Below, piece by piece: positions 3,332-63,489 of a DNA stretch of 64,000 nucleotides (its first letter is position 1; the number at the start of each line of letters is the position of its first letter). Source of the DNA: Halarchaeum rubridurum (GTDB lineage: Archaea; Halobacteriota; Halobacteria; Halobacteriales; Halobacteriaceae). Position numbers and translations under genes: made by a program. Location of the stretch: positions 434,001 to 498,000 of the forward strand of contig NZ_BMOO01000001.1 of NCBI RefSeq assembly GCF_014647115.1, in the 5' to 3' direction. The notes under the pieces were generated by a model. It saw nothing but the letters and a program-made list of their open reading frames with translations. It ran no database searches and was not told where the DNA came from.

Positions 3332-3721
3332 ACTGGAAAGTGGGGGAGGCCGGGGCAAGACAGTTTCCCCTCCATCTGTTTCCAGCGAGGGGTCGCCGTA
3401 GGCGACCCCCGCGCTGCAAAAACACGGTCCACGCGAGTGAAACGAGTGTGGGACCAGCGAGGCCCGACGGGTCTCGCAGGGGTGAAAAAGGCCGACGGCT
3501 TCGCCGTCGGTGAAACTCGTGCCAGCGGCGCGAGTACGCTGGACCGCACCGCGACCGACGCGGACGTCAGAGACAGCCGTCTACCAAACGAACCACGAAG
3601 AGGATTCCGCGAGCCGAGTGGTTCGAAGAACCCGGTAGGTCCACGGTTCCCTCGCCGGAGGCTCGCAGACGTTTGGCCGAGCGTGTGCCGGGGCGCGAAG
3701 CGCCCGCGGCAAAAGGCCGTA
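3332..3721. other. 390-base gene-free region with two structured repeats
   Basis: No convincing gene lies here. Long open frames cross it but are composition artefacts. The region holds the first copy of a multi-hairpin repeat (3389-3540) and, next to the end of the uracil-DNA glycosylase gene, a second type of palindromic repeat (about 3670-3722). Between them (about 3541-3670) I see no clear structure. Confidence 0.7.
3389..3540. repeat. multi-hairpin dispersed repeat, family A copy 1
   Basis: The central 64 bases (3426-3489) match 32500-32563 at 60 positions. Around this core lie hairpins that keep their place but not their sequence in the other copy. They are a perfect 9-base-pair stem GGGGTCGCC/GGCGACCCC at 3389-3409, a stem with CCGACGGC/GCCGTCGG ending at 3510, and CTCGTGCC/GGCGCGAG at 3517-3535. 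The string GGTGAAACTCG (3509-3519) is identical in both copies. Conserved pairing with changed bases suggests selection on a folded RNA or DNA form. Confidence 0.8.
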
Positions 3722-3722: not shown

Positions 3723-4318
3723 CAGAAGTCCCCGAGGCTCGACTGTCCGCCCTCGGCGCCGACGATGGTGGCGACCTTCTCGATGGCGGATGCGAAGGTG
3801 TCCTCCTGCGAGCGGTCGTAGAGCGTGGCGGCGGGGTGGACGCAGACGAGGACGTCGAGGCGCGCGTCGCCGACGGCGACGGTCTCGACGGTCCCGGCCT
3901 CCGTCGTGACAGCGACGGAGCGTTCGAGGAGGTGTTGGGCGGGGACCTTCCCGAGCGCGACGACGACCTCGGGGTCGACGAGTTCGAGTTCGCGTTCGAG
4001 GTAGGGCCGACAGTTGGCGAGTTCGGTCTCACTGGGATCGCGGTTCTCGGGTGGGCGACAGCGCACGCAGTTCGTGATGCGGACGTCGCGTCGGCGGAGC
4101 CCGTGGGTGTCGAGGGCGTCGTCGAGGACGTCGCCGCTGCGGCCGACGAAGGGTTCGCCCTGCTCGTCCTCGTTCGCGCCGGGGCCCTCGCCGACGAAGA
4201 CGACGTCGGCGTCGTCGGGGCCGACGCCGTTGACGATGCGGCTGCGGGAGTCGACGAGGTCCGCGCACCGCTCGCAGGCCGTGACGCGGAGGCCGTCCAT
4301 CCCCTCGGAATCGCTCAT
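3722..4318 (-). CDS. family 4 uracil-DNA glycosylase
   Basis: This 198-residue enzyme removes uracil from DNA in base-excision repair. The family-4 signature GEGPGANEDEQGEPFVGRSG holds the catalytic water-activating loop, and HPAA near the C-terminus is the second active-site motif. Cysteines in the N-terminal CERC, in NCVRC and in NCRPYL are the expected ligands of the 4Fe-4S cluster. The acidic composition fits a haloarchaeal cytoplasmic protein. It stands alone, followed downstream by a palindromic repeat. Confidence 0.93.
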   Translation of the reverse strand: MSDSEGMDGLRVTACERCADLVDSRSRIVNGVGPDDADVVFVGEGPGANEDEQGEPFVGRSGDVLDDALDTHGLRRRDVRITNCVRCRPPENRDPSETELANCRPYLERELELVDPEVVVALGKVPAQHLLERSVAVTTEAGTVETVAVGDARLDVLVCVHPAATLYDRSQEDTFASAIEKVATIVGAEGGQSSLGDF

Positions 4319-30446: not shown

Positions 30447-30527
30447 GAAGCCTAGGCCGGGATTTGAACAGCGTCAGACGGTCGCTCCCTTCGGTCGCGC
30501 TGCGACTGACTGGCTCAACTCCCGGCT
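30447..30527. repeat. tRNA-Thr 3'-end copy with large inverted repeat
   Basis: Bases 30447-30469 are identical to 30560-30582, which are the T-arm and acceptor end of tRNA-Thr (23 bases). The rest forms an imperfect inverted repeat: the arm starting GCCGGGATTTGAAC pairs with one reading GCCGGGAGTTGAGC on the other strand. The loop (30475-30507) matches 29 of 33 bases of the segment after tRNA-His on the opposite strand. Confidence 0.75.
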
Positions 30528-30561
30528 ACGGCTACTGCTCGTCACGTGGTTCCTCGAAGGA

Positions 30562-30633
30562 AGCCTAGGCCGGGATTTGAACCCGGGGTCTCGTCCTTAC
30601 CAAGGACGCGCTTTACCGCTAAGCTACCCAGGC
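30562..30633 (-). tRNA. tRNA-Thr (anticodon GGT)
   Basis: A complete 72-base cloverleaf reads on the minus strand: acceptor GCCTGGG/CCTAGGC, D stem GCTT/AAGC, anticodon stem CGTCC/GGACG with loop TTGGTAA, T stem CCGGG/CCCGG with TTCAAAT, discriminator T. No intron is present and CCA is not encoded. Its 3' end is repeated 113 bases downstream. Confidence 0.95.
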
Positions 30634-32443: not shown

Positions 32444-32761
32444 TTTCCATCTTTTTCCGAGTCGGGTGCGCGGGGGCGCACCCGTCCCCGCAAAAGCATG
32501 GTCCACGCGAGCGAAGCGAGTGTGGGGCCAGCGAGGCCCCACGGGTCTCGCAGGGGTGAAAAACCCCCGAGCGACGAAGTCGCTCGGTGAAACTCGCGCT
32601 TCGCGCGAGTACAGTATAGCGACCGCGCGCCTCATAGTCGCGTGACACGCGTCGTCAACGGCGAACACCGGCCACCGTACGGTTCGTGTTCGCAGTTACG
32701 GTCAGTTCCTCCGGGCGGAGCGAGCAGCGAACTCGACGAGCGGAGAAACAGACAGTCCGCC
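32444..32761. other. 318-base gene-free region after tRNA-Gly
   Basis: The region starts with a T-rich stretch after tRNA-Gly (CTTTTT at 32451-32456, a probable terminator) and holds family A copy 2 (32464-32612). The rest, up to the end of the convergent purine permease gene, has no feature I can support; open frames crossing it are artefacts of the repeat and base composition. Confidence 0.6.
32464..32612. repeat. multi-hairpin dispersed repeat, family A copy 2
   Basis: The core 32500-32563 matches 3426-3489 at 60 of 64 bases. Flanking stems are GGGTGCGC/GCGCACCC (32464-32483), CCGAGCGAC/GTCGCTCGG before the invariant GGTGAAACTCG (32586-32596), and CTCGCGC/GCGCGAG (32593-32609). Each stem differs in sequence from copy 1 but occupies the same place. 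Confidence 0.8.
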
Positions 32762-40993: not shown

Positions 40994-41254
40994 ATGCTCG
41001 AACTCTACCAGTCCGAAGGCTGCCCGCACTGTGCGAAGGTCCGCCAGAAGCTCAGCGACCTCGGCATCTCCTACGTCATCCACAACCCCCGCCTCCCCGG
41101 CGGCGAGGGCGGCGACGTCACGAACGAAGTCACGCACGACGAGCTCGTCGCCGGCGGCGAGGACCAGGTGCCGTACCTCGTCGACACCGACCGCGAGGTC
41201 ACGATGTACGAGAGCGACGACATCGTGGAGTACCTCGACGAACACTACGCCTAA
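40994..41254 (+). CDS. glutaredoxin-like / GST N-terminal protein
   Basis: This 86-residue thioredoxin-fold protein has the redox motif CPHC near the N-terminus and QVPYLVDTD with the cis-proline. MYESDDIVEYLDEHYA closes the GST N-domain-like end. It probably reduces disulfides or acts as a small-thiol oxidoreductase. A TATA-like GCTTTTGAAG lies at 40961-40970. The last 37 coding bases plus 8 more bases are duplicated 96 bases downstream (41314-41358). Confidence 0.9.
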   Translation: MLELYQSEGCPHCAKVRQKLSDLGISYVIHNPRLPGGEGGDVTNEVTHDELVAGGEDQVPYLVDTDREVTMYESDDIVEYLDEHYA

Positions 41255-41358
41255 CGCGGTTTTTCCCTCCAGGTTTTCGCGGGCGGCGGTTGCCCGCGAA
41301 AAGGTTGGCGACCCGACATCGTGGAGTACCTCGACGAACACTACGCCTAACGCGGTTT
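41218..41358. repeat. 45-base perfect direct repeat around a hairpin
   Basis: Bases 41218-41262 and 41314-41358 are identical. The first copy holds the end and stop of the glutaredoxin gene; the second is non-coding. Between them (41263-41313) lies TTTTCGCGGGC-GGCGGTT-GCCCGCGAAAA (41274-41302), a perfect 11-base-pair stem. Confidence 0.92.
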
Positions 41359-63294: not shown

Positions 63295-63368
63295 GTCCGG
63301 GTTGGGGTAGTGGACTATCCTTCAGCCTTGTGGAGGCTGAGACGCGGGTTCAATTCTCGCACCTGGAC
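63295..63368 (+). tRNA. tRNA-His (anticodon GTG)
   Basis: A 74-base cloverleaf: the extra G at position -1 (63295) pairs with C73 (63368), which is the mark of tRNA-His. The acceptor stem is TCCGGGT/ACCTGGA, the anticodon loop TTGTGGA, and the T stem GCGGG/CTCGC. No intron is present. A degenerate copy of the 3' end lies 119 bases downstream. Confidence 0.93.
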
Positions 63369-63401
63369 CTTTCTGTTGTGACCGACGGTGAGTAGCTGAA
63401 A

Positions 63402-63489
63402 GTCCACGTCGAGAAGTGGACCACGGGAGTCGCAGCGCGAACGGCGTGAGCGACCGTCTGCCGGCGGTTCACTTCTCGCATCTGGGCCT
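63402..63489. repeat. tRNA-His 3'-end copy with large inverted repeat
   Basis: Bases 63466-63489 match 63347-63370 (T-arm and acceptor end of tRNA-His) at 21 of 24 positions. The arm at 63402-63423 is nearly complementary to them (TCGAGAAGTGGACC pairs with GGTTCACTTCTCGC). The loop segment 63428-63460 matches the one beside tRNA-Thr (30475-30507, other strand) at 29 of 33 bases. Confidence 0.75.

Follow-up and report, generated by a model that had tools for sequence, protein, structure and literature searches.

Haloarchaeal gene ends duplicated around a conserved terminator-like hairpin, as seen at a glutaredoxin locus of Halarchaeum

Introduction

Several known kinds of DNA resemble the arrangement described here, a hairpin between two copies of a gene end. 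REP and REPIN elements, too, are short palindromes outside genes; they have mismatches close to the foot and often lie 3' of genes. They are marked by a conserved GTAG or CGTC foot tag, a high copy number and a RAYT transposase. Elements that integrate into the 3' ends of tRNA and other genes likewise give a downstream copy of the gene's 3' end, the att duplication. The PATEs and SMRs of Haloquadratum are, like our hairpin, short, non-coding, palindromic and haloarchaeal, and they have been described as causing no target duplication (PMC3119063). In H. volcanii, termination takes place at a T stretch followed by C; such haloarchaeal terminators likewise show T5CC soon after the stop codon, and hairpins near some 3' ends (PMC7237163).

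Results

The window, which is the whole 64-kb stretch of DNA that was analysed, contains a glutaredoxin-like gene whose end is found a second time downstream. The features of the locus are as follows.

40994-41254, + strand: glutaredoxin-like open reading frame of 86 aa, the host gene (orthologs 90-99% in three congeners)
41218-41262, + strand: copy A, the functional gene end (37 nt including TAA) plus 8 nt of 3' UTR (exact 45-bp repeat)
41260-41308, + strand: hairpin element E, TTTTTCCCTCCAGG-TTTT-stem-AAAAGGTTGG (the family has members in other genomes)
41260-41267, + strand: TTTTTCCC run, archaeal terminator-like, a T stretch then C (from sequence and the H. volcanii terminator motif, PMC7237163)
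41274-41302, + strand: 11-bp stem TTTTCGCGGGC / GCCCGCGAAAA with a 7-nt loop (RNA folding; arm complementarity across the family)
41314-41358, + strand: copy A', second gene end, outside the open reading frame (exact repeat; missing from two congeners in which the gene neighbours are the same)

The two copies form a direct repeat of 45 bp without mismatch, 96 nt from start to start and 51 nt apart, of which 37 nt are coding, including the stop codon TAA at 41252-41254. The initial annotation had read the repeat as the last 37 coding bases with the stop region, and an 11-bp stem between the copies; both are exact, with the arms at 41274-41284 and 41292-41302 in a spacer that reads TTCCCTCCAGG-TTTTCGCGGGC-GGCGGTT-GCCCGCGAAAA-GGTTGGCGACC. 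The 45-mer is clearly the longest exact close repeat of the window, and an estimated 1e-16 or so would be expected in 64 kb of the same composition, which excludes chance. The locus is thus A-E-A', with no second full E, and downstream of the perfect A' the sequence is unrelated or strongly eroded. The source genome is a draft, and genome-wide counts rest on sampled stretches. An assembly artefact is unlikely, since nearly complete assemblies from other genera show the layout as well. DGR-like template and variable repeats were rejected because there are no adenine-specific changes, and CRISPR-like repeats because the CRISPRs of the genome differ. Its CRISPR arrays, with differing repeats, were seen at L337 (C2 ~13.5-15.0 kb) and L346 (C3 ~337.8-340.0 kb).

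The glutaredoxin gene is present in all three Halarchaeum congeners. Directly behind it, H. nitratireducens and H. acidiphilum have the same convergent neighbour, with neither spacer nor second copy, and these are the unduplicated form that had been anticipated in related genomes. The arrangement has thus been derived within the genus or lost there. In the congener G002 the downstream region differs and a tRNA-Gly follows, beyond which several partial copies of the 5' end of this tRNA and palindromes are seen (L011). Among 37 haloarchaeal glutaredoxin loci that were read, only that of Halospeciosus (L024) had the arrangement. From the family set, one Halobacterium genome (G014) has A-E-A-E-A at glutaredoxin and A-E-A at a glutaredoxin paralog. 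This genome and the window have in common the odd junction GGCGACC(C/T)GACATC and a GTG codon; the codon is GTC in three further Halobacterium and in all three congeners of the window. The shared junction and codon point to a homologous event that may have passed between the lineages, or else been lost many times.

A search with the spacer gave matches in other genera, so it is not unique. A unique spacer and an identical arrangement in distant species had been named beforehand as the signs of an old local duplication; the spacer turned out to belong to a family, and the arrangement does occur at the same gene in Halobacterium and Halospeciosus. Compared side by side, the copies of E have the consensus T4-5CC(T/A)CCAGG-TTTT, variable stem, AAAA(G/A)GTGG, and in our reading a foot helix CCA.TGG is split from a T.A helix by G.G or G.A mismatches. 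The exact 17-mer TTTTCCCTCCAGGTTTT was found in 16 of 293 genomes of the order and the two-foot E pattern in 19 of 392 genomes, with zero control matches for both; reversed patterns gave zero matches in three E pattern searches and one in the search for AGG-type E. The feet are conserved and the stems hypervariable between copies, each stem being self-complementary. Over 86 family stems, pairing with the own arm gave -23.4 kcal/mol, as compared to -12.9 with the arms of other members and -11.1 after shuffling. Own-arm pairing across the family is thus exceptional, unlike the fold energy of the window hairpin alone, where RNA folding recovered the stem at an energy ordinary for its composition (z -1.46).

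AGG-type E has three copies in the source genome, one at glutaredoxin and two at malic enzyme, each between gene-end copies, and a pattern search found none in the three Halarchaeum congeners. In Halorubrum-type genomes E is dispersed to several loci per genome. Some loci of this type (L159, L161, L194 and related ones, family f5) show a larger composite with two hairpins and a tandemly repeated right end (..GACGAGAAAAAGGTGG), sometimes with CTGTAnTGAnC on both sides. Another gene-end array of the source genome (L347, C4 ~69.6-70.0 kb) has the complementary foot variant CCCAT / ATGGG, and its E+A' unit (99 bp, 100%) occurs twice with other hairpins between. With the covariance models of Rfam 15, 11 hairpin loci including that of the window gave no RNA family apart from a tRNA, which a single sub-threshold match overlapped. 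The single exact pattern match in viral contigs was dismissed as chance, being AT-rich viral sequence with neither hairpin nor gene-end copy.

Gene-end copies directly behind E were found at the genes of asparaginase, GGPP synthase, NusG/Spt5 and FUN14 in one genome (G023), of malic enzyme, NusG and FUN14 in another (G024), and of the large subunit of DNA polymerase D (polD) in genus g52, all host genes being named by eye from their protein sequences. The idea that a hairpin element recurs elsewhere with copies of its target was therefore borne out, with E and A' at unrelated gene ends in several genera. The A' copies vary in length, repeating the final 20-90 nt of the gene region, and start right after the right foot of E. 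At malic enzyme the source genome has an A-E-A-E-A array (L246/L328, C1 ~269.6-269.9 kb), whose last copy carries a one-base nonsynonymous change. Tandem (A-E)n units are clear in L103, L310, L311, L312 and L328. The last gene-end copy is without a full E in nearly all arrays, the exception being L309, which ends in a full E. At polD the array often closes with a copy that runs on through the left foot and the left arm and does not have the same right arm; right and left arms are nearly reverse-complementary. Empty sites were found in G025, of the same genus as G024, at three of these genes, and at polD in 5 of the 15 g52 genomes; the empty polD site of G392 already has T5CCTCC.

The copy A' is not obligatory, as E stands without it at asparaginase in G024 and L104, in convergent-gene copies in G024 and G025, and in Halorubrum-type composites. 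One array (L307) is not at a gene end. A motif-independent scan of 864 kb (the source genome and G023) found at least six gene-end duplications with hairpin spacers, and among the matches listed none at gene starts. The phenomenon is wider than E, since two of these duplications, L360 and L367, have spacers that do not resemble it. In the NusG 3' flanks of Halobacterium-genus genomes (L256, L274, L275), degraded copies of the gene end lie about 100 nt downstream, which suggests older duplications at the same gene.

The perfect identity at glutaredoxin had first been taken as a sign of a recent event, and this did not hold. In the polD arrays of ten g52 species, the copies are 0.96 identical within species and 0.80 between species (0.94 and 0.70 for the UTR part), and a derived junction base is common to most species. 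Judged from the sequences, this likeness within species indicates that the A copies have probably been homogenised by recombination. Copies that are alike within species and unlike between them mean that perfect identity does not date the event, which is a warning that identical short repeats are no proof of recency. Between A and A', 26 pairs gave 19 synonymous and 5 nonsynonymous differences; a freely drifting A' predicts 36% synonymous (P about 2e-5, with pairs partly non-independent and transition bias ignored). The excess supports, without proving, that A' may be something other than a dead copy left to drift. It fits exchange between coding alleles, or frequent recombination that would make A' the functional end again. 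It is also larger than plain conversion from A to A' would give, so allele exchange must be at work too, or else selection acting on A'.

At two tRNA genes of the window the layout had been described as the same. Gene end, spacer and copy do follow each other there, but the spacer is unrelated to E and also holds an inverted copy of the tRNA end. At tRNA-Thr (30447-30582, - strand) a 23-bp exact copy of the 3' end lies 113 bp downstream, and at tRNA-His (63296-63488, + strand) the downstream copy is imperfect. Their hairpin spacers are alike (84% over 43 bp); each includes part of the tRNA end in inverted form, and the direct copy comes after it. Both cases share the layout of glutaredoxin, with a different spacer. 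A downstream copy at tRNA-His can be recognised in G001 and G002 and in degenerate form in G003, with traces in all four Halarchaeum genomes. A 23-bp dispersed repeat, ACGGGTCTCGCAGGGGTGAAAAA, lies at 3467-3489 and 32541-32563 of the window, one copy in hairpin-rich sequence after tRNA-Gly. The tRNA-Arg called by ARAGORN at 4111-4192 is probably a false positive, given its poor tRNA features.

Discussion

Duplication of gene 3' ends around a conserved hairpin has happened repeatedly in haloarchaea, and different genera show it at the same genes. The layout, a family with conserved feet and variable stem, its presence at many genes and genera, the empty sites, the arrays and the homogenisation are all observed. 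We cautiously favour, as somewhat probable, a terminator-like hairpin coupled to a duplication of the gene end; recombination between the repeats would then amplify the unit, keep its copies alike and remove it again. E would be a dispersed hairpin shortly after stop codons, followed by the direct copy A'. From the T5CC run and the hairpin, and from T-stretch termination in H. volcanii, we infer that E may provide a 3'-end or termination signal, while the host gene would stay functional as copy A preserves its 3' end. The A+E unit could expand to A-E-A-E-A and then be homogenised; recombination between the direct copies could remove it scarlessly, and via homologous gene ends it could move from one strain to another. 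Recombination of A with A' would be the engine of both gain and loss. In the weakest step, the first A' would arise as E is inserted or copied in with a duplication of the target.

It is unlikely, but the best of the alternatives, that E is a non-autonomous mobile element of REP or PATE kind, mobilised in trans by an enzyme of the host or of a transposon, with the long flanking copies as its target duplication. This agrees with feet that are conserved at unrelated sites, with several loci per Halorubrum-type genome, with empty sites in relatives and with an A' that always starts immediately behind the right foot. Target duplications of 20-90 nt and variable length match no transposase that we know of; the stems are hypervariable, and no enzyme was linked to E as a mover in this analysis. 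Haloarchaeal palindromic elements of the IS200/IS605 type also lack target duplication (PMC3119063). An equally doubtful form is an active hairpin that would insert after stop codons and copy up to 90 nt of the gene end by a mechanism unlike known transposases, leaving the gene intact and spreading between strains via homologous gene ends. Insertion with copying of the target would explain the constant right junction.

Somewhat less likely again is template switching during replication or repair at a pre-existing terminator, in which the gene end and left arm are copied, a fold-back makes the right arm, and a jump back recopies the gene end before synthesis resumes. Such switching would account for last polD copies that break off, as they often do, inside the left arm, and for a right arm that is the mirror of the left; T5CCTCC pre-exists at the empty site of G392. 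Blind fold-back would not, however, keep the right foot AAAA(G/A)GTGG across genera with its G-G or G-A mismatches, and similar feet stand at unrelated genes. The single 96-bp tandem duplication that had been proposed, even with the second hairpin lost afterwards, is very improbable in spite of the clear tandem units of (A-E)n-A arrays elsewhere, as nearly all arrays lack a full E after the last copy and at glutaredoxin the sequence behind a perfect A' is unrelated or heavily eroded.

The copies, kept alike by recombination, offer a ready-made test system for gene conversion over short distances in polyploid archaea, and the arrangement may reveal a hitherto unknown way to move very small DNA elements without damage to genes.

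We found no description of gene end, hairpin and gene-end copy as a class in the open-access literature. The work on T-stretch terminators reports no repeats with duplicated gene ends (PMC7237163). Unlike att duplications, the copies here are about 51 nt apart with no integrase or cargo, and A' matches each host gene's own sequence. E lacks the GTAG/CGTC tag of REP and REPIN, its feet being CC(T/A)CCAGG and (G/A)GTGG in the copies read; those elements are high-copy with a RAYT transposase. Three copies of AGG-type E were counted in the source genome, and E is flanked by gene-end copies. Like a PATE, E has a near-terminal palindrome and is too short to code. PATEs make no target duplication (PMC3119063) and E has flanking copies of 20-90 nt, which sets it apart from PATEs and SMRs by description. 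We rate these haloarchaeal elements as its nearest known relatives in kind, and the E arrangement as a variant of short palindromic extragenic elements.
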